The notes under the pieces were generated by a model. That model made no database searches and was not told where the DNA came from. It worked only from the letters and a program-made list of their open reading frames with translations. Position numbers and translations under genes: made by a program. This document shows positions 1 through 11,803 of a stretch of 32,315 nt of DNA, in pieces (the stretch's first letter is position 1; every line of letters starts with the position of its first letter). Source of the DNA: a virus; IMG/VR virus record IMGVR_UViG_3300011116_000575, positions 1-32,315 of that record. One strand, written 5' to 3'.

Positions 1-378
1 ATGTATTGGGTAATAAAAAGGTGCAGATATTATTAATTTGCCACCTGGCTTTACAAAATCATATAAGCTTTGAATGGCAAATACAGGATTATAGATATAC
101 TCAAAAACCTCTAAACAAAATACAGTATCAAACATGCCTTTATATTCAATTAAGCCTTGTTGCATTTTGCCATACCTATTCAAATCAAATTCTATATCTA
201 CATCATTATTTTTTTCATGAGGGTTTGGTAAATCAGCTATTAAATAATGCTTTACTTGCCAACTATTTACTCTTTTAGGCAAAGACTGTTGGCTTCCACC
301 AATATCTAATAACCATTCTGATTTTATATCTTGTTTGCTTAACCATTCTTCTAACCTTTGCCTATAAACACTACTCAT
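1..378 (-). CDS. SAM-dependent methyltransferase, class I (3' end outside window)
   Basis: The leftward frame opens with ATG at 378 and stays open to the window edge, giving at least 126 residues (MSSVYRQRLEEW...). It reads LLDIGGSQ (a motif-I-like glycine loop near residue 25), an acidic strand end DIEFDLNRYG, then FDTVFCLEVFEYI near residue 80, and KPGGKLIISAPFYYPIH at the edge. That succession is typical of class I Rossmann methyltransferases, where the late 'F..EV.EHI..P......KPGG.L..S.P' block is very well conserved. The ATG overlaps the TGA of the glycosyltransferase (ATGA), so the two are probably translationally coupled. The sugar neighbours suggest that it methylates a glycan or a nucleotide-sugar-derived group, which is inference. 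The family call is firm and the substrate is unknown. The stop codon lies to the left of base 1. Confidence 0.85.
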   Translation of the reverse strand, partial: MSSVYRQRLEEWLSKQDIKSEWLLDIGGSQQSLPKRVNSWQVKHYLIADLPNPHEKNNDVDIEFDLNRYGKMQQGLIEYKGMFDTVFCLEVFEYIYNPVFAIQSLYDFVKPGGKLIISAPFYYPIH

Positions 379-1223
379 ATTTTCTCCATATTCTTTATAT
401 AATCATTATTCATTCTGTCTAAACTAAAATACTCCCTACCATATTCTTTGAAATGATACATAATTTCATCAGCAGAACCTTTCTTAAAAAAGTTATCTAC
501 AAAATCTATCTTGCAACCACTAAGTAAAGCTTCTATCAAAGTGTTTGAGCAAGCATCTTGCCAGTAAGTATAAATAAGCTTTTCAACATTCCTATAAACA
601 TCAGCCATCTGATTAGGATTAGCTATAACACCAAGAAACTGGTATTTTTCATCTGCATAAAAATCAAAGTTATATTCCACCATCTCTGGGCTAAATTGTC
701 CGCATAGATATAAAAAGCTATCAGGCTCTTTATAAGTAACCCTTGTAAAGTAATCTCTGGCAACTTCCCAGTTCTTTGTTTCATCTCTGTTATACCTGCT
801 ATATAAATAAGTATTTTCTTTAGCAGTTCTATTTTTATTATGATAAATATCTGCATCACTGGAATTCAATATTACTGTTGATTTATAAGTTTTTAGAAAT
901 GGCTCAAGCAATTCTTTTACTGCTTCACTTTGGTAAATAACTAAATCTGCAATACCAGCAAAATCTTTCATTCTGCTCATACCAGTATTTCTATTTCTTG
1001 AGTTTCTGATTACATTATCTACTCTTAATACAATTTTTTTATTATCTGTTTTGGCTTTAATAACATCATCTCTGCTGACCATACTTGCAGAAGTAATAAA
1101 ATAAACATCTGCTTGATTATAGTCAGATGTATATTTATCTTGTAGGCTTTTTACAAAGTTATTAGCAAAAGACCACCCCCCACCAATCCTATTAGGTTCA
1201 TAATTAGCTAAGTATATTTTCAT
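375..1223 (-). CDS. Glycosyltransferase, GT4-like (group 1)
   Basis: This 282-residue protein probably transfers a sugar from a nucleotide donor. It starts MKIYLANYEPNRIGGGWSFA, with the glycine-rich N-terminal loop of GT-B enzymes. A central segment lists residues such as RVDNV and NSSDADIY, followed by YSRYNRDETKNWEVA and then LYLCGQF. The C-terminal donor-binding block has YTYWQDACSNTLIEALLSGCKI near residues 220-245, where the 'E.....EAL..G' pattern of GT4 enzymes appears in a variant form. The length is short for the family (usually 350-400). It overlaps the deacetylase upstream by 20 nt and ends in an ATGA overlap with the methyltransferase, so the sugar genes look like one coupled unit. 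No signal peptide or TM segment is visible, so it is probably cytoplasmic. Donor and acceptor cannot be read from the sequence. Confidence 0.8.
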   Translation of the reverse strand: MKIYLANYEPNRIGGGWSFANNFVKSLQDKYTSDYNQADVYFITSASMVSRDDVIKAKTDNKKIVLRVDNVIRNSRNRNTGMSRMKDFAGIADLVIYQSEAVKELLEPFLKTYKSTVILNSSDADIYHNKNRTAKENTYLYSRYNRDETKNWEVARDYFTRVTYKEPDSFLYLCGQFSPEMVEYNFDFYADEKYQFLGVIANPNQMADVYRNVEKLIYTYWQDACSNTLIEALLSGCKIDFVDNFFKKGSADEIMYHFKEYGREYFSLDRMNNDYIKNMEKI

Positions 1224-1848
1224 TGAGTAAATCCATAAATTTTACAAAGTTTTCCCATTGGTTGTTTTGGTGTATTTCAGCAGAGTGTCCCCAGAAATGA
1301 AAATCAACATCTTCCCCCCTGCTTTCTTTTTCTAAAGCTTTGGCAATCATTTTCTTTCCAAATTCCAGCCAAGAGCAACCATACTCTCTTCTATCACAAC
1401 CAACATGAATTGTTGTGTGCCTAGCATATTTATTTTCTGCAGGGTTTAATTCACCAACCAGTGTTGTTCTAGCTTCTGTATATTCAGCAGCTTTTACAAC
1501 TTCTGCTATATCTGAAGTATAGTACCCTCTTGGGTAACAAAATTTATTAACTTTTTTATTAAGATATTCTTCCCAATACATTTTGCTTTCATATATTTCA
1601 AATACTTGGTCTTCTTCACTAACCCTTGTAAGTAAAACATGATTTACAGAATGAGAGCCAATTTCAAACTCAGATGCCAACTCTTTTAATTGTTCATCAT
1701 TAAGTGGGTCTATTCCTCTCATTAAAAGGTATTTTCTCCAATTAACAGGTATATAAAAAGTTGTAGGTATCTTAAAGTTATACATCATATTGGCAGTTCT
1801 TAAATCATATATACTGCCATCATCAAAACTAGCTGTTACTTTTATCAT
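1204..1848 (-). CDS. Polysaccharide deacetylase, NodB homology domain
   Basis: This 214-residue protein has the catalytic pattern of carbohydrate esterase family 4. FDDG lies at residues 8-11 (Asp9 and Asp10; catalytic base and metal ligand). The metal-binding pair is SHSVNH (His66 and His70). YPRG follows at about 105-108, and a late WGHS near residue 187 fits the C-terminal His motif. Members remove N-acetyl or O-acetyl groups from polysaccharides such as peptidoglycan or chitin-like glycans. No signal peptide is visible; the protein begins directly with the first strand (MIKVTASFDDG), so it may act on a cytoplasmic precursor. It sits between a dehydrogenase and a glycosyltransferase, overlapping both by about 20 nt. 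Its natural substrate is unknown. Confidence 0.9.
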   Translation of the reverse strand: MIKVTASFDDGSIYDLRTANMMYNFKIPTTFYIPVNWRKYLLMRGIDPLNDEQLKELASEFEIGSHSVNHVLLTRVSEEDQVFEIYESKMYWEEYLNKKVNKFCYPRGYYTSDIAEVVKAAEYTEARTTLVGELNPAENKYARHTTIHVGCDRREYGCSWLEFGKKMIAKALEKESRGEDVDFHFWGHSAEIHQNNQWENFVKFMDLLNENILS

Positions 1849-2659
1849 TTTCTCCTACATGAAATTCATTAAGTTCTAAAATAGTATCAAACAGTTTTGC
1901 CATATCTTCAGCACCAACTGATTTGGCATAGGCAGATAGTGCAGGAACATCTTTGTCCCAGCATTTGCTCTTCCAGCCTTTGTTGAAACTGACTGCTCTT
2001 AGGTGCATGCTGTCTGTTCTAGGGTCAGATTGCCAGGCTTGGTGAATTCTTACAAAGTTTGTGCCAGATTTCTGTGCAAGGCTCAAAAGTGTATTTATGA
2101 ATGTAACTTTTAATGCTCCATAGCTATTCTCTACTAGCTTTGTAATTTCTGCTTCTAATGCACTTGTAATATGTATCTTTACATCTGGGGACATCTTATT
2201 CCATAAAACTTCAGCACAAGCTGTAGCTGTTTCTTCTTCACCACCTACAATTAGCATCTGATGCATTCTAGGGTCAGTTTGGTGTGGGTATTTCCAAAAA
2301 TGTATTGGGTAAGTACCCTCTCCAATAAACTCAACAGAAACTGCAATTTTCTTGCCAGTCTTTTTAACTAATTTATCTGTAGTGCCAGGTTGCAAAGCTG
2401 ATTTAATTAAAATCAAAGGTGTTTTAATCCAATCTACTACTTCTTCTACAATACTTATATCAAGTGAGCCATCTTCTTTGTGTGGTGTAAATACTGCCAC
2501 AAGTGCAATATCACATTCATTTACTTCATCTTTAGTTGTTTCAGAAACCTTTTTGTTATTCACTAACTTATCTGAGTAAGGGTCATAAATTACTGCATCA
2601 GGAAATAGCTGACTATATGCCTGACCTACTACTCCATAACCTACTATTGCTACTTTCAT
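1829..2659 (-). CDS. UDP-glucose/GDP-mannose dehydrogenase-like NAD-dependent enzyme, short form
   Basis: This is an NDP-sugar 6-dehydrogenase-like protein of 276 residues. The N-terminus has the Rossmann dinucleotide loop GYGVVG (residues 7-12). It then shows FTPHKEDGSLD, equivalent to the family's 'PTP...DG..D', and SALQPGTT, equivalent to 'ST..PGTT'. EFIGEG (110-115) matches the 'EFL.EG' active-site strand. AEITKLVENSY (170-180) matches the helix carrying the catalytic Lys (Lys174) and Asn (Asn178), and KCWDKD (Cys233) takes the place of the catalytic 'CFPKD' motif. The key catalytic residues are therefore present, but the C-terminal UDP-binding domain of full-length enzymes (400-450 residues) is missing. 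It may oxidise a sugar nucleotide to a uronic acid that feeds the neighbouring glycosyltransferase. The missing domain leaves specificity and even full activity open. Confidence 0.8.
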   Translation of the reverse strand: MKVAIVGYGVVGQAYSQLFPDAVIYDPYSDKLVNNKKVSETTKDEVNECDIALVAVFTPHKEDGSLDISIVEEVVDWIKTPLILIKSALQPGTTDKLVKKTGKKIAVSVEFIGEGTYPIHFWKYPHQTDPRMHQMLIVGGEEETATACAEVLWNKMSPDVKIHITSALEAEITKLVENSYGALKVTFINTLLSLAQKSGTNFVRIHQAWQSDPRTDSMHLRAVSFNKGWKSKCWDKDVPALSAYAKSVGAEDMAKLFDTILELNEFHVGENDKSNS

Positions 2660-2928
2660 TGTTGTTCCTTGTCTAAATTGGTTAAGTCTATTTTACCATT
2701 ATTTATAAAATTATTAAACTCAGCTATATCTTTATTAGATATTGCTTTTGGTCTATGTACTGCATCTATATCTATTACAGGTATTTTACCTTTGTTTCTT
2801 CTAAGAACAGCCCATGCCATGAACATTTCTTCTAAAAATTCAGCAGGTAAATTATACAAATATTCTATGAACTCTGGGTCAAAGTTTTCACTGCCAAAGA
2901 TATTATTTCCTGAGCCTTTGTACTTCAT
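2656..2928 (-). CDS. Hypothetical protein (90 aa)
   Basis: I do not recognise this family. It is soluble and acidic to neutral, with no TM segment or cysteine pair. A helical middle (FIEYLYNLPAEFLEEMFMAW) is followed by AVLRRNKGKIPVIDIDAVHR and an acidic tail. The ATG has a GGAG seven bases upstream. It overlaps the preceding nuclease by 26 nt and touches the dehydrogenase start, so it is embedded in the coupled leftward operon. It could be a small accessory of either the nuclease pair or the sugar cassette, but nothing in the sequence decides between them. Confidence 0.65.
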   Translation of the reverse strand: MKYKGSGNNIFGSENFDPEFIEYLYNLPAEFLEEMFMAWAVLRRNKGKIPVIDIDAVHRPKAISNKDIAEFNNFINNGKIDLTNLDKEQQ

Positions 2929-3280
2929 CTCTTAACTCCTTTAATTCTGCTCTCAAGTCCATATAATCTTCAATTTTCATTACAGATAATATAGGTCTAT
3001 GATTGCCTGTTATATGTAGGATTGGCTTTTGAAATTGTCCTGCTTGCTCACTGGCTTGCTTCCACCATGCCCATAGCTTTACAGTTTCTTGGCACTTTAC
3101 TTCATCACTCCAATCATCAGCTTCACCTTTGAATATATCTGACTTGTGAAAAGCCATAGCACCTGACATTGGCATTCTTTGAGCTTTAGGAAATAGCTTA
3201 TATCTTCTATATAGTTCAGCTACTTTCATTTCTGCCCTATTGCCTTTTGCCTTTTTACTAGCTGGTGTATTTGCTTTCAT
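2903..3280 (-). CDS. Holliday-junction-resolvase-like PD-(D/E)XK nuclease
   Basis: This 125-residue protein opens KGNRAEMKVAELYRRY, like the 'G...E......L...G' helix of Hjc-type resolvases. It continues with MPMSGAMAFHKSDIF, whose Ser-Gly and Asp match the conserved 'SG..G..DI' block. SDEVKCQ near residue 62 supplies the E-x-K of the nuclease core. The spacing Glu-(~30)-Asp-(~12)-Glu-Val-Lys fits the PD-(D/E)XK fold, and the C-terminus is a charged helix (LRAELKELRDEVQRL). Such phage enzymes cut branched DNA before packaging. It overlaps the next nuclease gene by 23 nt and lies in the same operon as a putative annealing protein, consistent with a recombination module. The exact subfamily is inferred from motifs only. 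Confidence 0.65.
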   Translation of the reverse strand: MKANTPASKKAKGNRAEMKVAELYRRYKLFPKAQRMPMSGAMAFHKSDIFKGEADDWSDEVKCQETVKLWAWWKQASEQAGQFQKPILHITGNHRPILSVMKIEDYMDLRAELKELRDEVQRLRK

Positions 3281-3770
3281 AATTCATAAATTCTGGTGTA
3301 TGTAACCACCTTTTCCAATTTATAGTATCAGTATCTATTCTATAACACCAAGAATTTAATTTATCAGAAAATACTTTATTGTTAATTTGCTTAATGCCTT
3401 GAGGTTTAATCAGGGCATAATGTTCTTTTATTGCATACAGAATGATGCCATTATTCTTAACTAAATATTCAATTTGATTACTCTTAAAATCAGTATAATC
3501 CTGAAGCTTGCCCATTTGAACTTTTACTTCAACTTGCAAGATATTGTTATCATGAATTAGTAGGTAATCTGGAACAAACTCCCAGTATTGAGCAACACCC
3601 TCTGTGTCTTCTTCCTGCTCAATATAGTCATACCAAACTCCTTTTTCAATATGCTTGTCTATAATAAATTGTTCTATGGCAAGCTTCTGATTATGTTTTC
3701 CTATTTTTAAGTTTCTAGCAAATTGTTCATCAGTTCTTACATCTTTAGCATAATCATATCTGTCTGACAT
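3258..3770 (-). CDS. Putative PD-(D/E)XK-type nuclease
   Basis: This 170-residue protein has WEFVPDYLLIHDNNILQVEVKV at about residues 63-84. That supplies the PD, a loop, then E-V-K, which is the catalytic signature of the PD-(D/E)XK superfamily. KSNQIEYLVKNNGIILYAI follows, resembling the amphipathic helix plus strand that usually come after the core. An upstream helical region (KIGKHNQKLAIEQFIIDKH) could provide the first acidic residue. AAAGGTAG precedes the ATG at 3770. It directly overlaps a second nuclease of the same superfamily, which is an unusual pairing. Roles in recombination, host DNA degradation or defence are all possible, and I cannot choose between them. Confidence 0.6.
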   Translation of the reverse strand: MSDRYDYAKDVRTDEQFARNLKIGKHNQKLAIEQFIIDKHIEKGVWYDYIEQEEDTEGVAQYWEFVPDYLLIHDNNILQVEVKVQMGKLQDYTDFKSNQIEYLVKNNGIILYAIKEHYALIKPQGIKQINNKVFSDKLNSWCYRIDTDTINWKRWLHTPEFMNYESKYTS

Positions 3771-3868
3771 CTACCTTTACCCTCAGAGCCTTAATAATCT
3801 TGAATATCAGTTTGTTTTGTTTTTTTAAGTCTAAAATATTTGGGCTTATTTTTGTTTTTGTTTTTATT

Positions 3869-4027
3869 TCAATTTTGTAAGTACGCATAGCAGTATTTTG
3901 GTAATTCATTTAATGGTGTATTTTCACAAGTGTGAATATTTATTAAATCTTGTATATCTGCAATAAGAACACCAATTAGTGCTACAGCTATGAATATCAG
4001 TATTATTAGAATGTACTTTGTTTTCAT
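3869..4027 (-). CDS. Small single-pass membrane protein (52 aa)
   Basis: A 52-codon gene starts at ATG 4027 behind an exact copy of the extended ribosome-binding motif AATTAAACAAGGAGA (4035-4049). Residues 4-24 (KYILIILIFIAVALIGVLIA) form one strong hydrophobic segment. A short tail with two cysteines follows (HTCENTPLNELPKYCYAYL). Orientation is probably N-in with the cysteine-bearing tail outside, where the cysteines could pair. The next gene downstream starts about 100 nt away. A short early phage membrane protein of this kind could act in superinfection exclusion or membrane remodelling, but no family is recognised. Confidence 0.6.
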   Translation of the reverse strand: MKTKYILIILIFIAVALIGVLIADIQDLINIHTCENTPLNELPKYCYAYLQN

Positions 4028-4047
4028 TTCACCCTCTCCTTGTTTAA

Positions 4048-4188
4048 TTATTTTTTTAGTTCTGAATTGTGTGCATCTACAATAGCTTTTTTAATTACTA
4101 TCTTGGCAAAATACAGGCTACCAAAAGTGAATAGGTTTAATATGATGTACCAAACATATTCTATTGGTGTAAGTTCTTGCTTCTTCAT
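4048..4188 (-). CDS. Small membrane protein (46 aa)
   Basis: ATG at 4188 overlaps the TGA of the preceding KGG gene (ATGA) and has AAGGAG just upstream. The 46 residues are MKKQELTPIEYVWYIILNLF and onward, with a hydrophobic stretch at about residues 11-32 that could span the membrane once, followed by a lysine-rich end. Its TAA leads straight into the extended RBS of the next small membrane gene, so the two membrane peptides are adjacent and probably co-expressed. No family is recognised. Confidence 0.55.
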   Translation of the reverse strand: MKKQELTPIEYVWYIILNLFTFGSLYFAKIVIKKAIVDAHNSELKK

Positions 4189-4445
4189 CTTTGCTCCTTA
4201 TATTCTTTAATTATTTTCTCAATTTCTGCAATTTTCTGTTCATCTAATGCTGTTCTCTTGTTTCCTTTTCTGCTTTTTAATCCACCAAGCTGACCAGCAA
4301 GTTTAGCTATTTCTTTGTTGTAGGCAAAGCCACCGCCTTTGGATTTCTTACCACCTATTGCTCCAATTTTTTTATAGTGGTCTGCACCATATCTTTGTTT
4401 TACTGTTGCGGCTGCTTTCAAACCGCCCTCTCTTGTTGCTGCCAT
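4185..4445 (-). CDS. Small basic KGG-motif protein
   Basis: This 86-residue, very basic protein is rich in Gly and Lys: REGGLKAAATVKQRYGADHY, then KKIGAIGGKKSKGGGFAYN, then AKLAGQLGGLKSRKG, ending in a charged helix (ALDEQKIAEIEKIIKEYKEQ). The repeated 'IG..GG..S.GGGFA' and 'A...GG..S' units match the KGG/stress-induced-motif proteins often seen in phages and small-genome bacteria, whose function is unproven. The composition suggests nucleic-acid binding, which is inference. An AAGGAG lies nine bases before the ATG. Its stop overlaps the start of a small membrane protein. Confidence 0.65.
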   Translation of the reverse strand: MAATREGGLKAAATVKQRYGADHYKKIGAIGGKKSKGGGFAYNKEIAKLAGQLGGLKSRKGNKRTALDEQKIAEIEKIIKEYKEQR

Positions 4446-4446
4446 T

Positions 4447-5016
4447 TTAATATGCTCCTTTCAATAATTCTTGTAATGTATCTGGGTTAGCTTGGTCTAT
4501 CTCTTTGATTAACCTAGCTACACCAGAAGTGTTTAGGTTCTCACCCCCTGTGATTGCTTTAACAATCTTTTGTTTGTCTGCTGGGTCTGTGATGCCCTTA
4601 TCTTCTAATAGTTTGCTGATTGTGCCAACTTGAGTAGGTGATAAGCTCATTCTTGATTGCATCTCTGCTTTGTTAAGCTCATCTACACTTGCAAGGCTAT
4701 CTATCACACCAATCCCCATCATGGCTAAGGCTCTACCTATAGCACTTGTTTCACAGTTTTCAATAGCACTTGTCTTGTTAATATACCCATCACCCCATAG
4801 GGCTTGTGAATAGCCAGTAAAACATCTCTTAGCATTATCTACATCAGGCACTACTACCGCTTTGATTACTACCCTTTCATCTTCTGGCTTGCTTTTAAGA
4901 TAAGTCTTAATCCTGCCATTAGGGTATTCAGCATTGAAGTAAAGTATTCTGTCTGCAACAAGTACATACTTTTTGCCTTTGATATCTATTGCCTTATTAC
5001 TTAGTGATTTGTCCAT
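4447..5016 (-). CDS. Putative ERF/Rad52-type single-strand annealing protein
   Basis: This 189-residue protein has a central block GYINKTSAIENCETSAIGRALAMMGIGV (about residues 75-102). The 'K...E..ETSAIGRAL..LGIG' signature is frequent in phage ERF-like and related annealing proteins. The N-terminal half reads like the alternating strands of that fold (KKYVLVADRILYFNAEYPNG). The C-terminal third (SPTQVGTISKLLEDKGI and after) is a helical tail. Such proteins anneal complementary single strands in phage recombination. Two probable PD-(D/E)XK nucleases are encoded downstream in the same operon, a context that fits. The extended RBS motif sits at 5022-5036, just upstream of the ATG. The fold assignment rests on one motif, so other DNA-binding roles remain possible. 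Confidence 0.55.
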   Translation of the reverse strand: MDKSLSNKAIDIKGKKYVLVADRILYFNAEYPNGRIKTYLKSKPEDERVVIKAVVVPDVDNAKRCFTGYSQALWGDGYINKTSAIENCETSAIGRALAMMGIGVIDSLASVDELNKAEMQSRMSLSPTQVGTISKLLEDKGITDPADKQKIVKAITGGENLNTSGVARLIKEIDQANPDTLQELLKGAY

Positions 5017-5149
5017 TTGTTTCTCCTTGTTTAATTAGTTGTTCTACATATATCAGGGCTAGTTCTGTGTCCCAGCCATCAGATATCAGTTCATCATACA
5101 AATACCATTCTTCATCAGTTAGTTGTTCTGTGTCCCATGAAGTTTTCAT
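4997..5149 (-). CDS. Small hypothetical protein (50 aa)
   Basis: The ATG at 5149 is contained in TAATG with the stop of the upstream zinc-ribbon gene, which is typical of coupled translation. The 50 residues (MKTSWDTEQLTDEEWYLYDE and onward) are acidic and contain a repeated pattern, SWDTEQL and GWDTELAL. The last 20 nt overlap the start of the annealing-protein gene, and the next gene's extended RBS lies inside this reading frame. No family is recognised. It is included because of its tight junctions, but its reality is not certain. Confidence 0.5.
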   Translation of the reverse strand: MKTSWDTEQLTDEEWYLYDELISDGWDTELALIYVEQLIKQGETNGQITK

Positions 5150-5418
5150 TATTCACCATACCTTTCTGCTTCAGCCCATGCATCATAGTCTGGGGTGGGC
5201 AATTCATAAGTCCCACATAGTGTGCAGTGATAATCATTGTTATCATCTACATCTATTTCATCATGCTGACACTCAAGTATCTTGCCACAGTCATCACAAG
5301 TTACTGGGTTTTCAAATCCTTGCAACTTAGCTGTGTGCAAAGGGCTAAGATATTTATGCTCACAATAACTTTCTTTAATGCTTTTGTTGATTTGGTCTAG
5401 TTGTTTTATTAAATCCAT
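5149..5418 (-). CDS. Small zinc-ribbon protein (89 aa)
   Basis: Two CxxC knuckles are visible, CDDCG near residue 41 and CTLCG near residue 65, with extra Cys/His between (ECQH). This gives a zinc-ribbon-like module with an acidic linker (DEIDVDDNND). The ends are a short N-terminal helix and an acidic C-terminus. Proteins of this type in phages often bind nucleic acid or a host polymerase, but no specific family is recognised. A one-mismatch copy of the extended RBS (5424-5438) precedes the ATG. Confidence 0.65.
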   Translation of the reverse strand: MDLIKQLDQINKSIKESYCEHKYLSPLHTAKLQGFENPVTCDDCGKILECQHDEIDVDDNNDYHCTLCGTYELPTPDYDAWAEAERYGE

Positions 5419-5436
5419 TTTACTCTCCTTATTTAA

Positions 5437-5685
5437 TTATTTATATTCTTTTTTTAGTTGGTCTAATGTAATCAAACCTTGATTGTAAAGTATTTCACCA
5501 TATTCTTTTGAACCCCTAGATAGATTGTTTTCATAGTCAATACATTGTTTGCAAACTTTACTGTGAAAGTAACCAACCAACTTATCATCTCCTTTTTCAT
5601 TGTATTCCCAATCTTCTATTGGCTCTGAAATAAACCTTGAATAACACTTTTTACAAATCCACTCAACTGATTTTGGCTTCTTCAT
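5437..5685 (-). CDS. Small zinc-finger protein (82 aa)
   Basis: The protein has CKKC at residues 11-14 and CKQC at about 45-48, separated by an aromatic, acidic stretch (DWEYNEKGDDKLVGYFHSK). This is a plausible four-cysteine zinc site. The C-terminus is a lysine-rich helix (LITLDQLKKEY). It is the second cysteine-knuckle protein in a row but is not obviously homologous to the neighbour beyond the cysteines. An exact copy of the extended RBS (5691-5705) precedes the ATG. Confidence 0.65.
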   Translation of the reverse strand: MKKPKSVEWICKKCYSRFISEPIEDWEYNEKGDDKLVGYFHSKVCKQCIDYENNLSRGSKEYGEILYNQGLITLDQLKKEYK

Positions 5686-5752
5686 ATTTCTCTCCTTGTT
5701 TAATTATTTGATAGTTCTAGTATATGGTAGTTGTGGTTTTCATGCAAGTGTT

Positions 5753-5926
5753 TTATTTGTTTAATTTATCAGCATATACTATGGCTTCTGCTTCAGTTTC
5801 AAAGCTTTTGATTTGCTCAATCTTGTTTGTTTTGCCATCTACCATAGTTACTTTTTTTACATTGTATCTTTTGCTGGAATTTGCACCTAACCAAGTCCAG
5901 CTTATGGTATATGTTGTATTCTTCAT
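5753..5926 (-). CDS. Small hypothetical protein (57 aa)
   Basis: ATG at 5926 is preceded by CAAGGA within a variant of the extended RBS. The 57 residues start MKNTTYTISWTWLGANSSKR and end FETEAEAIVYADKLNK. The pattern of two strands and a helix resembles the small one-domain proteins (strand-strand-helix, with an 'A.A.A..L' helix) common in phage early regions. No cysteines or membrane segment are present and the function is unknown. About 57 nt separate its ATG from the stop of the gene upstream. Confidence 0.55.
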   Translation of the reverse strand: MKNTTYTISWTWLGANSSKRYNVKKVTMVDGKTNKIEQIKSFETEAEAIVYADKLNK

Positions 5927-5983
5927 ATTGCTTCCTTGTTTATTATTGGTGGGCAGTTTTTTGAGCTGCCCAGCTCAGTTTTG

Positions 5984-6238
5984 TTATTTTAATAAATCCC
6001 ATTTTGATTGAAGTTTGTATTTTTCTAAACTTTCTTGTTCTCTTTCATATAGTGGGTAGCTTTTGTGTGTAATTTCTTTAGCATCTTCTAAGTCTTTTTG
6101 GCTTAGTGTGTAGTTTTGTCCTGTGGTTAAGTTATACACTACATCTGTGTCATATCTTCCATAAGTTACTGCTATTACATCTCCTGGTTTAGTAAAAGTG
6201 CTTTGTGTGTTTGCTTTGTAAAATGATAATGTTTCCAT
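5984..6238 (-). CDS. Hypothetical protein (84 aa), first gene of the leftward operon
   Basis: I do not recognise this protein. It begins METLSFYKANTQSTFTKPGD, then VIAVTYGRYDTDVVYNLTTG, which reads as a small beta-barrel (SH3-like) followed by a charged helix (YEREQESLEKYKLQSKWDLL). An exact extended RBS (6243-6257) precedes the ATG. It lies about 65 nt downstream of the predicted start site of the strong leftward promoter at 6310-6339. It is therefore probably the first translated gene after infection, a position often taken by host-takeover or regulatory proteins (inference). Confidence 0.6.
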   Translation of the reverse strand: METLSFYKANTQSTFTKPGDVIAVTYGRYDTDVVYNLTTGQNYTLSQKDLEDAKEITHKSYPLYEREQESLEKYKLQSKWDLLK

Positions 6239-6309
6239 ATTTTCTCCTTGTTTAATTATTAGTTAGTTGTTTGCTTGGCTATTCACTTTTCAAAGTACCT
6301 TATGTATAT

Positions 6310-6339
6310 ATAATAACAAAAGCATAAGTACCCTGTCAA
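6310..6339 (-). promoter_or_regulatory. Leftward promoter of the early/accessory operon
   Basis: Read leftward, a perfect TTGACA (6339-6334) is followed after 18 nt by TATTAT (6315-6310), with transcription expected from about 6302. It lies upstream of all leftward genes from 6238 to 1 and is the only strong leftward promoter seen there. The AT-rich -10 element overlaps a TATAAT readable on the plus strand (6309-6314). Confidence 0.75.
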
Positions 6340-6496
6340 GTGTTTTTTCAGACTTTTTTTTAACTTTTTTTTATCTGGTTTTTGTGCTAAACTGCTGTTT
6401 GTTGTGGGTTTTTTGCAACTCCTTGTTTAATTGCCCACAACTACTTGGTTCATATTCTCCAAGCAAATTAGCCACTAGAACTTTAGTGGCTTTTTT
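6321..6496 (+). ncRNA. Candidate rightward small RNA carrying an anti-RBS loop
   Basis: No rightward gene lies between 6240 and 6471, yet a textbook rightward terminator ends at 6496. A TATAAT at 6309-6314 with a weak TTTTCA 16 nt upstream could start a transcript near 6321. Within it, GTTGTGGG (6401-6408) pairs perfectly with CCCACAAC (6434-6441). The 25-nt loop contains CTCCTTGTTTAATT (6419-6432), the exact complement of the extended RBS used by several early genes. A trans-acting antisense RNA that blocks those start sites is a reasonable reading. The alternative is that this is a relic RBS of a lost leftward gene; a short leftward peptide frame there supports that only weakly. The 5' end is a guess. 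Confidence 0.35.
6471..6496 (+). terminator. Rho-independent terminator (rightward)
   Basis: The perfect stem GCCACTA/TAGTGGC (6471-6477 and 6484-6490) has a 6-nt loop and is followed at once by six T. The opposite strand has no T run, so it acts rightward. No rightward gene ends here, which points to a non-coding transcript. Confidence 0.85.
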
Positions 6497-6500
6497 GATA

Positions 6501-6514
6501 TATTAAATTTAATA
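6501..6514. promoter_or_regulatory. 14-bp palindrome, possible operator
   Basis: TATTAAATTTAATA is a perfect 14-bp palindrome directly after the first rightward terminator. It could be an operator for a dimeric regulator. Being AT-only, it could also arise by chance in this composition. Confidence 0.3.
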
Positions 6515-6598
6515 GCCAAGTATAGTACCTACCTCACTAGAGTTTTACTCACCTTAATATTACAAGAAAAGTATCATACAGTTATTGGGCGAACTAAT

Positions 6599-6634
6599 AC
6601 AACCTTTGCATCTTGGAAGCAAGGTTGTTTTTTT
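6599..6634 (+). terminator. Second rho-independent terminator (rightward)
   Basis: ACAACCTTTGC (6599-6609) pairs with GCAAGGTTGT (6619-6628), with one bulged T, and is followed by a run of T to 6634. It is the second rightward terminator in 140 nt without a rightward gene in front of it. Either another short RNA ends here or the region is insulated against read-through into the 6807 unit. Confidence 0.8.
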
Positions 6635-6806
6635 ATAAAAGTCTTGCCAACAAAAAATAAATGAGTAATAATAAGTACCAAGCAGATTAGCATTTGCTTA
6701 CAAACACTCTGCAGAGTTATAACAACTAAAGAAAAAACCCACCTATAAGGCAGGTCTTGAGATTAGCATTACCTAAATTATAGCAGGGTTAGATAGGAGT
6801 GGTCAA
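6635..6806. promoter_or_regulatory. Upstream region of the rightward island, with repeats
   Basis: No gene is visible here. It holds a weak rightward promoter candidate (TTGCCA 6644-6649, AATAAT 6667-6672, 17-nt spacer) and a second one, TTGAGA (6757-6762) with TATAGC (6779-6784). It also holds the perfect 12-bp palindrome ACTCTGCAGAGT (6706-6717) and the direct repeat AGATTAGCATT at 6684-6694 and 6760-6770. The spacing of 76 bp (about seven helical turns) would suit two operator sites bound on one DNA face. All of this is pattern only. Confidence 0.4.
6732..6755 (-). terminator. Probable leftward terminator
   Basis: Read leftward, ACCTGCC and GGTGGGT (6755-6749 and 6743-6737) form a 7-bp stem using two G-U wobbles around a TTATA loop. 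It is followed by five T. On the plus strand the wobble positions become mismatches, so the structure favours the leftward transcript. It would stop late transcripts running antisense through the rightward island before they reach the control region. Confidence 0.5.
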
Positions 6807-7100
6807 GTGTTTTCTAGCAAAGAAATTCTAACTAACAATGTAACATTGAACAATGATATAAATTTAATAAAAAACAATGTTAAAACAAACAATGTTAATC
6901 ACAAAAGAGTAGAAGTATTAGCTAATGATTTAGCAGATAAATTAAATTCACCCAATTCTTATAAGCTTTTTTGCAAAGTTGTTTATAAGAACCCAGAGCC
7001 TGTAATACAAAGATGTTTGGGTCTAACTTTAGAAGCAGATAATGTTTTTAATAAGGGTGGTTATTTTATTAGTCTAATTAAAATTTATGGCAACTTATAA
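6807..7100 (+). CDS. Small protein of unknown function (97 aa), GTG start
   Basis: The start is GTG at 6807 with TAGGAG seven bases upstream; no ATG fits better. The first 35 residues are Asn-rich and probably disordered (NNVTLNNDINLIKNNVKTNN). After this, RVEVLANDLADKLNSPNSYK leads into LFCKVVYKNPEPVIQRCLGLTL and a GGYFISLIKIY end. The pattern 'LA..L.D..N...Y......YPE..I...L......KN.G..F..L' resembles a small helical protein I associate with Patescibacteria and their mobile elements, of unknown function, possibly related to replication or regulation. That resemblance is from memory and weak. It is the first gene of the rightward island and so could be a regulator. Confidence 0.6.
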   Translation: MFSSKEILTNNVTLNNDINLIKNNVKTNNVNHKRVEVLANDLADKLNSPNSYKLFCKVVYKNPEPVIQRCLGLTLEADNVFNKGGYFISLIKIYGNL

Positions 7101-7108
7101 CTCAGCAT

Positions 7109-7137
7109 TTGCATTTTAATTATGCTTATGCTATAAT
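7109..7137 (+). promoter_or_regulatory. Rightward promoter
   Basis: TTGCAT (7109-7114), a 17-nt spacer, then a perfect TATAAT (7132-7137). It follows the 6807 gene by 9 nt and would start a transcript near 7144, just ahead of the extended RBS of the two-TM protein. It provides separate expression of that gene and the transglycosylase. Confidence 0.7.
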
Positions 7138-7168
7138 GGTTACAGTTTCAATTAAACAAGGAGAAAAA

Positions 7169-7366
7169 ATGAAACAAATAAAAAACATATCAACTAAAAC
7201 AATTACTTTCTTTCAAAGGGTAATTAACATATTCTGGATTGCTGCCATAGCAGTATTAGGATTATATCTTATAGATATTATTCAACTTCCAGTGTATATA
7301 GTTAAAGCATATAGTTTTGCTTTGCTTATCACAGCATTAGTACAGCTATATAAGAGCAGTAAATAA
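7169..7366 (+). CDS. Small two-TM membrane protein (65 aa)
   Basis: ATG at 7169 is chosen because an exact extended RBS ends five bases before it. An upstream in-frame ATG at 7109 lies inside the promoter and lacks an SD. The protein has a basic N-terminus (MKQIKNISTK) and two hydrophobic segments, at about residues 18-35 (IFWIAAIAVLGLYLI) and 43-60 (IVKAYSFALLITALV), with a short tail KSSK. It is small enough to be a holin-like or immunity-type membrane protein. It directly precedes a secreted cell-wall enzyme, so a role in export or lysis is possible. A separate holin candidate already accompanies the endolysin at 8409-8591. Confidence 0.65.
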   Translation: MKQIKNISTKTITFFQRVINIFWIAAIAVLGLYLIDIIQLPVYIVKAYSFALLITALVQLYKSSK

Positions 7367-7416
7367 GGAATATTCATATAAGAATATTTATAGTTTTAGC
7401 AAGCATAGTTCTAACA

Positions 7417-7800
7417 TTGGCTACCTTGCCACATACTAACCCAAAAAATGTTCGCACCTCACAAGTAACTGGTCATCAAAACATAGCTAAGCCTGTTTTA
7501 GCAAAGTTTGAGCCACAAATAGCAAGTAGTGCAGAAAATACCCAAAAAGCCGCTACAAGCCCTGAAAATAGCTCAGATGCAAAGATGTTTATCTACTTAA
7601 AAGAAAGTAATAATAATCCATCTGCTATTAACAAAAGTTCAGGAGCTTGCGGTCTGGGTCAGGCTTTGCCCTGCTCAAAGATGCCATGTAGTCTGACTGA
7701 CTATAATTGCCAAGACCAATTTTTTACCGCCTATATGCAAAACAGGTATGGTACTTGGGAAAATGCCAAAGCTTTTTGGCTAAGTCATAACTGGTGGTAA
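7417..7800 (+). CDS. Secreted lysozyme-like (SLT/RPF-type) transglycosylase
   Basis: The C-terminal domain reads MFIYLKESNNNPSAIN (Glu of the 'ES..NP' motif, the presumed catalytic acid), GACGLGQALPCSKMPC (the 'GL.Q' motif with paired cysteines) and YMQNRYGTWENAKAFW. This is the compact transglycosylase/resuscitation-factor-like domain common on secreted proteins of Actinobacteria and Patescibacteria. The frame stays open upstream of the TTG at 7417. Read from ATA at 7378 (seven bases after AAGGAA) it gives RIFIVLASIVLTLATLPHTN, a clear signal peptide. The true start is therefore probably 7378 with a non-canonical codon, or the start codon is mutated. A Ser/Ala/Pro-rich linker (about 30-60) joins the signal and the domain. 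It cleaves peptidoglycan outside the membrane, for entry, lysis or host-surface remodelling. Confidence 0.75.
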   Translation: MATLPHTNPKNVRTSQVTGHQNIAKPVLAKFEPQIASSAENTQKAATSPENSSDAKMFIYLKESNNNPSAINKSSGACGLGQALPCSKMPCSLTDYNCQDQFFTAYMQNRYGTWENAKAFWLSHNWW

Positions 7801-8029: not shown

Positions 8030-8058
8030 AGCAACCCCCTTGCCAATCAAAGTATAAC

Positions 8059-8175
8059 AAAAAACCCCAGATGGTGGTATTCCTTTTAATCCATTTTGAG
8101 GAACAGAGTTTTTCTCTGATGAATGCCTACTCTCTCTGGGGTTAGTAGATGTTAGCGAACTAAGCTCTCTACTGT
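8059..8175 (-). ncRNA. Structured small RNA of about 117 nt with own promoter and terminator
   Basis: A perfect consensus promoter ends at 8182, and a terminator stem AACCCCAGA/TCTGGGGTT (8143-8135 and 8071-8063) with six T (8064-8059) closes the transcript. Between them are a 5' hairpin AGTAGA/TCTACT (8173-8168 and 8149-8144) capped by TTAG-TTCG-CTAA, an internal hairpin CAGAG/CTCTG, and TTCCT/AGGAA. A longer pairing GGCATTC/GAATACC with one mismatch lies inside the terminal stem. There is no start codon with an SD. It does not match any riboswitch, ribozyme, tmRNA or 6S family I know. It could be a stand-alone regulator or a leader controlling the 8029 gene. Confidence 0.7.
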
Positions 8176-8181
8176 ATAACC

Positions 8182-8210
8182 ATTATATCAAACAACTTAT
8201 GCTTTGTCAA
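8182..8210 (-). promoter_or_regulatory. Perfect consensus promoter of the 117-nt RNA
   Basis: Leftward TTGACA (8210-8205), exactly 17 nt, then TATAAT (8187-8182). Both hexamers and the spacer match the sigma-70 consensus, which is rare and implies very high constitutive output. Its start would lie near 8175. Confidence 0.9.
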
Positions 8211-9682: not shown

Positions 9683-10240
9683 CTAAGTTTGTGAAACTAA
9701 AAATCCTGTAAAGTAATTATAATTTGCAGTACCTACATCTAATGCAAAAGCAGCATTTCCATAAGCCCTAACAGTTACTGCATTTGTAGCACTTAATTGT
9801 ACTGTGGCTGACCCACTACTACCTAAAATACCAACAGCATTAGATAAAGCTCTGCTACCCCTAGCAGTTTCTGTTCCACTTACAAATAATGAAAACAATA
9901 CTGTTTGCCCGCCAGCAGAAGTAGCTGCTGAACCACTCCAGCTGAAATGATAAAAACCATTTACAGGTACAGTATAAGTTCCTGTAGATGTAGAAAAGTT
10001 ATTATTAGTATCATAAGCTTCTGTATCATAAACAACTGTTGCAAAAGTATTGTTGCCTGTATTAGCTGCAGCAGTTCTTTTTGCATGAAATTTATAAGGA
10101 TTGCTAATAGAAGTAACATTAGTAGCTAAGTTAGCTATACCTGTACCATCATTAAAACTGGCATCATTAGTGCCTAGTATATTCCATTTACTAGCACTTG
10201 GTTGTTCTCCATATATTACTGACCATGATGAATATGCCAT
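9683..10240 (-). CDS. Tail fibre paralogue with C1q-like C-terminal domain
   Basis: Residues 1-30 are the shared attachment module (MAYSSWSVIYGEQPSASKWN). From about 45 on, the protein reads like a C1q/TNF-like jelly roll: FHAKRTAAANTGNNTFATVV, YDTEAYDTNNNFSTSTGTY, TVPVNGFYHFSWSG and YNYFTGFLVSQT. This is the order of conserved aromatic and glycine positions of C1q heads. Such trimeric domains end receptor-binding fibres in several phages. It is the last of three tandem genes with the same N-terminal module and different C-terminal domains. It probably decorates the tail tip and binds the cell surface (inference from family and position). Confidence 0.75.
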   Translation of the reverse strand: MAYSSWSVIYGEQPSASKWNILGTNDASFNDGTGIANLATNVTSISNPYKFHAKRTAAANTGNNTFATVVYDTEAYDTNNNFSTSTGTYTVPVNGFYHFSWSGSAATSAGGQTVLFSLFVSGTETARGSRALSNAVGILGSSGSATVQLSATNAVTVRAYGNAAFALDVGTANYNYFTGFLVSQT

Positions 10241-10242
10241 TG

Positions 10243-11223
10243 TTATGCCCTTTCTATTGTGTAAATGCCTGTTCTTGTACTATCACCATTTATAGTCATA
10301 GTTCCAGTAAAAGCATTATTCCTGAATTTTATATTAAGATAAGTCAAACCGCTATAAGTTCCGCTATTAAAAAATTGTGTAAAAAATATTCCTGTAGGTG
10401 TGCTATTATTTACAGCATAGTGAGGGTCTGCAATTTGTGTAGTGTAAGTATTATAAGCAGTTGCTAAATAAAGCGGAAATACCCAATAATCTGAACTTGC
10501 TGTCCAACCTGAACATACAGCTTCATAAAAAGTAAATTTATAATTTGTATTAGCTTCAGCCTTAAATGCAACATAGTTCATACCATTCCAAGCTACTGAT
10601 GAACCGCCAGGTGAGCCTGTAGTAGCTGAGCCAGCCCTAGTATATGCAGATAATAATCTACCTATTGGGTCCCTATTGCAAATCCTATTACCTAAACTAT
10701 CTATAATTACATTTGAACTAGGATTATTATTCCAGCCTGCCACACCTGAACTTGGTGAATAAATATCTCCTGTAGTTGCTGAAATAATACCTTGATTTAT
10801 TCTATATTTACTAGCAATAGAACCAGCAGCAGTAACTATTATTGCAAGTCTTATGCTATTTGCAGCAAGAGCAGGAGAACTAGCATTATTAGCCACTTCA
10901 GAATAAGTTAAAGTTCCATTACTATCTACATCTACATAAGTATCTTTAGATGCAGTAAAAAGCCTTGATGTTACTGCTGAAACAGAAACCTTTTGTCCAT
11001 TTATATATACAGTACCTGCAGTCATTGAGCCATATCTGGTAGAACCATAGCTATCACCTGTCCAAACACAGCCAGATGCAACATAATTCACAGTAGTATC
11101 ATCTGTAAAACTATCTATATTACCAAGCCTAGTGTTGGCATCTTCATCATTTGTACCTAGTATGTTCCACTTAGCCGCACTAGGTTGCTCTTGATATACT
11201 ACTGACCAACTCTGATAAGCCAT
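10243..11223 (-). CDS. Tail fibre paralogue with unrecognised C-terminal domain
   Basis: The same N-terminal module begins the 326-residue protein (MAYQSWSVVYQEQPSAAKWN, then LGTNDEDANTRLGNIDSFTD). It then has a beta-rich middle with GCVWTGDSYGSTRYGSMTAG and VYINGQKVSVSAV, a typical fibre repeat. The C-terminal part contains ATTGSPGGSSVAWNGMNYVA and a carbohydrate-binding-like stretch (FYEAVCSGWTASSDYWVFPL) that I cannot assign. It is the longest of the three and may be the main host-range determinant. No strong SD is visible before its ATG, which suggests coupling to the upstream fibre gene. Confidence 0.7.
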   Translation of the reverse strand: MAYQSWSVVYQEQPSAAKWNILGTNDEDANTRLGNIDSFTDDTTVNYVASGCVWTGDSYGSTRYGSMTAGTVYINGQKVSVSAVTSRLFTASKDTYVDVDSNGTLTYSEVANNASSPALAANSIRLAIIVTAAGSIASKYRINQGIISATTGDIYSPSSGVAGWNNNPSSNVIIDSLGNRICNRDPIGRLLSAYTRAGSATTGSPGGSSVAWNGMNYVAFKAEANTNYKFTFYEAVCSGWTASSDYWVFPLYLATAYNTYTTQIADPHYAVNNSTPTGIFFTQFFNSGTYSGLTYLNIKFRNNAFTGTMTINGDSTRTGIYTIERA

Positions 11224-11224
11224 A

Positions 11225-11803
11225 TCAGTATTTAATTATATAGTTAAGGGTAATGTAAGGCTGCACATTGTTGTGAGCTGCTCCACCACCTGTATTCTGT
11301 GCAGAGAAACCCCAGAAGTTGGCAGGAGAGTTTTGGTCAGCTCTACCATAGGCAGCACCAAATCCGCCAGCACCCCAACCAATACCAGAGTTAATAGTGT
11401 GAGAGTGAGAGGGCATTTCATTTGATGTAAGGGTATGAGTTTTAGCTCCACCAGTTTTGCCTAAAGCATTAAAGTCTGTATCACTTGAGTTATAACCAAC
11501 AGGTACATTACCTTTTAAGTTAGGTAAGTTAAATGTTGTAGCTCCATCACCATTACCATAGGTTGTACCTATAACTGCAAATAAAGCAGAATAAGTAGTT
11601 CTTGAAACTGCATTACCATTACAAATTAAATAATTGGTAGGTGCAGAACCTGTACCCCAAAGCATAATTCCACCTACTGGTACAACACTTGCTTCTACAG
11701 ATGTAATTCTAGTATTTGCATCTGCATCATTACTTCCTAATTTATTCCATTTTGTAGCTGTTGGTTGTTCCCCAAATACTACTGACCAAGCTTCATAAGC
11801 CAT
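11225..11803 (-). CDS. Tail fibre paralogue with tail-collar domain
   Basis: The N-terminal module (MAYEAWSVVFGEQPTATKWN) is followed at about residue 35 by a clear phage tail-collar/microcystin-dependent-protein domain: VPVGGIMLWGTGSAPTNYLI, CNGNAVSRTTYSALFAVIG, TTYGNGDGATTFNLPNLKG, then EMPSHSHTIN and NNVQPYITLNYIIKY. These 'G....P..yl.c.G', 'FNLP.l.g', 'mP.H.H' and 'QP....ny.i' elements are diagnostic. The collar domain is found on short and long fibres that bind the cell surface. It is the first of the fibre trio and is preceded by GAGGGAAG as SD. Confidence 0.85.
   Translation of the reverse strand: MAYEAWSVVFGEQPTATKWNKLGSNDADANTRITSVEASVVPVGGIMLWGTGSAPTNYLICNGNAVSRTTYSALFAVIGTTYGNGDGATTFNLPNLKGNVPVGYNSSDTDFNALGKTGGAKTHTLTSNEMPSHSHTINSGIGWGAGGFGAAYGRADQNSPANFWGFSAQNTGGGAAHNNVQPYITLNYIIKY

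Follow-up and report, generated by a model that had tools for sequence, protein, structure and literature searches.

The DNA analysed here (the window) spans 32,315 bases, has a GC content of 34%, and makes up an entire virus record of the IMG/VR type. It contains a capsid gene (Phage_capsid, 9.7e-56) and also encodes a tape-measure protein, and its genes are laid out as leftward early genes (375-6238), a few rightward genes (6807-7800), and leftward structural genes from 8409 onward. One of the early genes (4447-5016) encodes a protein that was assigned to an ERF-like family judged by its relatives; it falls in a PHROG of unknown function and had no Pfam match. Searches of phage records by DNA returned none resembling the window, and a search for relatives of the first early protein found none.

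The extended ribosome-binding site (RBS) of the window reads AATTAAACAAGGAG, and the plus strand at 6419-6432 carries its complement, the 14-mer CTCCTTGTTTAATT, which is the proposed pairing element. The exact 14-mer is present in 6 copies in the 32,315 bases, five forward (4036, 5023, 5692, 6244, and 6419) and one reverse (7150), compared to an expected count of 0.00 and a maximum of 0 in 100 dinucleotide-preserving shuffles of the window. Four forward copies serve as RBS for the leftward genes 3869-4027, 4447-5016, 5437-5685, and 5984-6238, the reverse copy does so for the rightward gene 7169-7366, and a sixth gene (5149-5418) has a 13/14 match. These exact matches to four leftward genes and one rightward gene, none of which arose in shuffled sequence, confirm the claim of an earlier note on this DNA that CTCCTTGTTTAATT perfectly complements the extended RBS before several early genes. 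The copy at 6419 is the sole one among the seven (six exact and one 13/14) that does not stand immediately 5' of a gene start. When a looser variant, AATAAACAAGGAAG, in front of gene 5753-5926 is counted, the site is carried by 6 of the 14 listed leftward early genes and by the one rightward gene. By contrast, late genes carry no copies with two or fewer mismatches.

The 14-mer at 6419 lies in the loop of a plus-strand hairpin (6401-6441), and its arms GTTGTGGG (6401-6408) and CCCACAAC (6434-6441) pair perfectly over 8 bp, as the earlier note had described. The hairpin has a predicted energy of -15.3 kcal/mol (z -4.1), which 1 of 200 shuffles equalled or bettered. Within it, a predicted 4-bp helix (6415-6418/6423-6426) closes a CUCC tetraloop (6419-6422). 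Owing to this inner helix, the full 14 nt are not freely open in the predicted structure, and the loop pairing site costs 9.3 kcal/mol to open. A second small hairpin (CUUGG/CCAAG; 6444-6463) was predicted in the fold of the RNA 6395-6496. Its loop, UUCAUAUU, is complementary to AAUAUGAA, which lies at the start codons of genes 5437-5685 and 5753-5926; this loop is possibly a second, weak pairing seed. An intrinsic terminator follows at 6470-6496, 37 nt past the motif, with a 9-bp stem (6470-6491), a 4-nt loop, and a T-run. The note's further description of a clean rightward terminator with no gene in front of it also holds, in that the sole plus-strand ORF before the terminator is one of 79 aa with a TTG start and a hydrophobic, low-complexity product. 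For the RNA 6395-6496 as a whole, the predicted folding energy is -33.9 kcal/mol (z = -5.3), a value equalled by none of 200 shuffles.

Plus-strand promoter candidates for the hairpin RNA are weak and were recognized by consensus match only. One is an extended -10 (TGC plus TAAACT, 4/6; 6385-6393) with a poor -35, from which transcription would start near 6400, 1 base before the hairpin. The other, TTTTCA-16-TATAAT (6287-6314), would start transcription near 6321. On the minus strand, a leftward early promoter, TTGACA-18-TATTAT (11/12; 6310-6339), likewise predicted by consensus match only, is divergent and about 60 nt from the hairpin. A search of viral contigs for the exact hairpin gave no match. 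In Rfam scans of the window and in a relaxed scan of 6240-6820, no family reached threshold, and the best score of any family was that of MicC (21.8 bits compared to a gathering score of 90).

Accessibility-corrected energies (duplex energy plus opening costs) were calculated for the loop against 42 gene starts (14 early, 26 late, and 2 rightward), and ranks 1 to 7 went to precisely those seven genes that carry the extended RBS (-9.5 to -6.1 kcal/mol), followed by an eighth at -3.5 kcal/mol. On the minus strand, the net energies were -8.8 kcal/mol for the extended RBS of the first early gene, 5984-6238 (target 6244-6257), -6.1 kcal/mol for the weaker variant target of gene 5753-5926 (5931-5944), -9.1 kcal/mol for gene 5437-5685 (5692-5705), -9.5 kcal/mol for the 13/14 target of gene 5149-5418 (5425-5438), -7.4 kcal/mol for gene 4447-5016 (5023-5036), and -8.8 kcal/mol for gene 3869-4027 (4036-4049). 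The plus-strand target of the rightward gene 7169-7366 (7150-7163) gave -8.1 kcal/mol. When the loop was subjected to 2000 mononucleotide shuffles, its summed duplex energy to early starts was reached once.

A relative of the window, locus L008, was found via its ERF-like protein (64% identical) and has its gene neighbourhood in common with the window. Its RBS is wholly unlike that of the window, with GGAGAACGCGA standing before two early genes (starts 4980 and 5426). In the interval from the end of gene 4555-4854 to the early promoter, and just upstream of that promoter, L008 has a 10-bp hairpin (TACCGTCAGG-CATGAACTCGCGTTCTCCA-CCTGACGGTA, then TTTTGTTT) with a loop, TCGCGTTCTCC, that is an 11-nt perfect complement of the L008 RBS. 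A second locus, L038, keeps the hairpin, the promoter that follows it, and a TATAAT from which transcription is predicted to start 1 base ahead of the hairpin. Relative to L008, the sequence upstream of this block differs and one stem pair (C-G/A-U type) is changed to G-U. In overlapping sets of 29, 80, 8, and 24 loci of the window's lineage, the feature was present only in L008 and L038; most of the other loci either lack it or end short of the region. Two further matches in the hairpin scan were rejected, L052 where by coordinates the loop is the other strand of the gene start beside the ERF-like gene, and L063 where the match is a run of A.

An RBS pattern scan returned 91 stretches and, among them, no near relative of the window; used as a background for the hairpin scan, they yielded by chance one strong further case, in an unrelated lineage. 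Its locus L125 encodes an ERF protein (PF04404) and has genes with the RBS GGAGAACCA. The gene adjacent to its hairpin is encoded by 20 loci, and the hairpin comes right after the stop codon of this gene in 18 of them; the remaining two (L243 and L247) both end before the hairpin site. Since the 18 include many contigs that are almost identical, this evidence amounts to three states and not 18. The family has three distinct hairpins, and a strong second hairpin comes next in all three groups. Between groups 1 and 2, whose proteins are 45% identical, 5 of 8 stem pairs are changed on both sides and the loop motif, GTGGTTCTCC, is kept. In the third group (L245 and L246), the loop is TGTTCTCC and the RBS at two genes is GGAGAACA. 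Taken as sequence comparisons, the change of loop and RBS together between the window and L008 gives good support to the anti-RBS reading, and the change within the L125 family points the same way more weakly. Independent variation of loop and RBS in related phages, which the earlier note held would tell against pairing, was seen in neither of these two lineages (L008/L038 and L125); the cluster K mycobacteriophages described below gave a mixed picture.

As a swap control, loops were matched to the RBS sets of other phages, with 203 loci and 129 hairpins treated as independent even though some of the loci are related. Matches to at least two of a phage's own RBS were seen 2 times at 10 nt (0.05 expected) and 4 times at 9 nt (0.25 expected). 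After filtering out hairpins that overlap the Shine-Dalgarno (SD) sequence of an opposite-strand ORF, 1 match remained at 10 nt (0.05 expected) and 3 at 9 nt (0.24 expected). Two of these three matches at 9 nt (L035 and L080) lack a T-run and were rejected as cases. L008 was lost under the overlap filters because of an antisense ORF, and L125, found in the scan of the 91-stretch set, is absent from the swap-control scan, which required 4 G-C stem pairs. Complementing without reversing gave 0 matches at 9 nt in both sets scanned. L182 and L162, which match only 8 nt of the common SD, were set aside.

The complementarity, the hairpin, the terminator, and the change of loop with RBS in a relative can all be read directly from the sequences, and from them we conclude that 6400-6496 probably specifies a plus-strand antisense RNA of about 100 nt that represses translation of the phage's own early genes. 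A short RNA composed of the anti-RBS hairpin, the small second hairpin, and the intrinsic terminator would be transcribed rightward from near 6400 or 6321. In the cell, its loop would pair with the extended RBS of six leftward early genes and one rightward gene, and this pairing would cover the SD and keep ribosomes off. The gene set would be turned down together, probably later in infection, and the extension beyond the SD, which is private to the phage, would spare host and late genes. The comparison of loop and RBS in L008 and L125, together with the compensatory stem changes in the L125 family, supports the anti-RBS RNA proposed in the earlier note. Its wider statement that the early operon is shut off in concert is unsupported, because no more than 6 of the 14 listed leftward early genes have the site. 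Since hairpins with loops matched to the RBS also occur in viruses with other RBS, one RNA may nevertheless switch off several early genes at once. The switch from early to late genes in phages is mostly thought to be transcriptional. If the reading is correct, a single RNA matched to a private RBS that many early genes share would constitute a switch at the level of translation, sparing host and late genes alike.

Pairing predictions carry no sign of effect, and the same RNA might instead activate or time translation, or act as a sink, for example by holding the RBS open, stabilizing mRNAs, or being bound by early mRNAs. We consider this unlikely, given that the predicted pairing covers the SD itself and that initiation is blocked in the precedent of c4 RNA of phages P1 and P7, as described in PMC12197685. 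It is quite unlikely that the copy at 6419 is a relic of a leftward gene, as the earlier note had considered; in this reading, a decayed or moved gene left its RBS on the minus strand and the hairpin is incidental. The minus strand does read as an RBS, RBS copies stand scattered before unrelated genes across the early region, and the antisense strand of L008 even has an ATG 11 nt after GGAG that opens a 52-aa ORF. However, this ORF is down to 24 aa in L038, where the hairpin is kept, and in the window no ATG or GTG lies at a useful distance downstream. Moreover, the true RBS copies have extra flanking letters in common, whereas the match at 6419 ends within 14 nt. In the L125 family, a stop codon precedes the hairpin and compensatory changes preserve the stem, which a relic would not show. 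Finally, it is very unlikely that the locus is a transcription element only, whose terminator and hairpin insulate divergent regions and whose loop is a DNA operator or a chance match. With the early promoter about 60 nt from the hairpin, a terminator would be useful anyway, but the 14-nt match is not one of chance (0 in shuffles), and in both L008 and the L125 family the loop tracks the RBS rather than a promoter motif.

The nearest phage precedent for the proposed antisense RNA is c4 of P1 and P7, an RNA that is encoded by the phage and blocks translation of a phage mRNA through pairing of its loops with the RBS region (PMC12197685). The loop in the window is likewise complementary to an RBS region, but c4 acts on one antirepressor unit, whereas the window loop matches a motif common to seven gene starts. 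The C4 Rfam family had no match at threshold in the window and none in the relaxed scan of 6240-6820, and we do not place the element in that family. In small RNAs of the LhrC and rhizobial types, a CU-rich unpaired stretch pairs with the SD of several mRNAs and is followed by an intrinsic terminator. The window element also combines a CU-rich stretch that matches several SDs with an intrinsic terminator. Those RNAs are chromosomal and generic in their anti-SD sequence, whereas the window match reaches beyond the SD core to 14 nt and fits specifically the early RBS of the phage itself. Multi-target anti-SD RNAs of this kind are described for Listeria (LhrC, with UCCC motifs) and rhizobia (anti-SD loop RNAs) (PMC4132741, PMC10746234, PMC3927594). 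The element shares with this class complementarity to the RBS of several mRNAs (seven gene starts), presentation in a loop, albeit one partly occluded by the inner helix, and an intrinsic terminator; covariation of loop and target was found in two lineages only, with cluster K mixed. The open-access literature searched contained no description of a phage RNA that pairs with several of its own RBS, and no RNA matched to the sequences described next.

Cluster K mycobacteriophages have a 13-bp start-associated sequence (SAS), a conserved extended RBS before many non-structural genes (Pope 2011, PMC3203893). A single reverse SAS copy away from gene starts is present in each of the K1 phages Anaya, Adephagia, Angelica, and CrimD, and the authors leave undecided whether RNA or protein binds the SAS (PMC3203893). 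SAS function is still called unknown in a 2024 paper (PMC11373665). In the 34.6 kb of Adephagia examined, the single reverse SAS makes up the loop at the tip of GCGCGG-CCTCCTATCC-CCGCGC, a hairpin embedded in a longer stem. This hairpin is positioned in the gap between genes 92 and 93, where late transcription appears to begin (PMC11373665). Blast returned 164 related records, and by alignment the hairpin region could be placed in Amgine, Shandong1, Yuna, and Keshu. In 9 of 13 cluster K sequences, Adephagia included, 16 consensus pairs were predicted, several of them changed on both sides and 5 broken in at least one sequence; this count excluded Yuna and Keshu, which lack an anti-SAS loop, and SirPhilip and Marshawn, where the region was only partly matched, and it leans towards structure. 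In Unicorn, Ekdilam, and Amgine-like phages, the loop deviates although the SAS does not change, and Keshu, Pixie, and TM4 gave no reverse SAS or loop match. The evidence that the cluster K hairpin may pair with the SAS is mixed, and we take it as a lead.

Like the window, cluster K combines an extended RBS before many genes with a reverse copy in a hairpin loop (K1, Adephagia), but its hairpin is GC-rich with no U-run terminator seen. The window itself is not a cluster K SAS system, as its RBS is not the 13-bp SAS consensus. It is quite possible, although we would not yet favor it, that unrelated lineages each evolved a private extended early RBS and a hairpin RNA with its exact complement, as a recurrent RNA switch that turns early genes off. 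The matched hairpins would then lie beside an early promoter (window and L008), after an early gene (L125), or in a late leader (K1). If true, this would explain the start-associated sequences, which have been without a known role since 2011. Such an RNA switch could recur in unrelated phages, and for the cluster K SAS it suggests a role that can be tested.

Several other features of the window and its relatives were noted. On the plus strand, a second rightward terminator-like hairpin without a gene before it lies at 6600-6637, in a region (6500-6637) whose fold is unremarkable (z -0.2). On the minus strand, 6734-6806 contains a leftward promoter, TTGACC-18-TATAAT (11/12), with a leftward terminator-like hairpin (6758-6734) within about 20 nt; transcription that ends almost immediately would perhaps reflect an attenuator or a tiny RNA. 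Also leftward, a 12/12 promoter within 8055-8210 is followed by a structured stretch ending in CTGGGGTTTTTT (z -2.6), possibly a leader RNA or a second small RNA. The word GCATAAGT or its reverse complement (near-repeats in one case) occurs within the predicted promoters at 6310-6339, 7108-7137, and 8182-8210, and is a possible candidate operator. The start of the rightward gene 6807-7100 contains repeated AACAATGTT-like words, the L008 counterpart has ATCGAT repeats, and the counterpart in a distant relative, L010, has AATGTCAATG words; the repeated words inside 6807-7100 are possibly iteron-like candidate binding sites. At 3301-4310 of L010, a tyrosine recombinase gene is followed by what appears by eye to be the 3' end of a tRNA-like gene, an arrangement that likely marks a predicted attachment site. 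On the minus strand, three consecutive genes (9683-11803) open with a common MAYxSWSVVxxEQPSAxKWNxLGxND module, which L008 has too. Finally, a related ERF-like protein (63% identity, residues 1-119) is encoded on a 141-kb contig (L113) of a Candidatus Magasanikbacteria MAG, which gives a hint of the hosts of this phage group.
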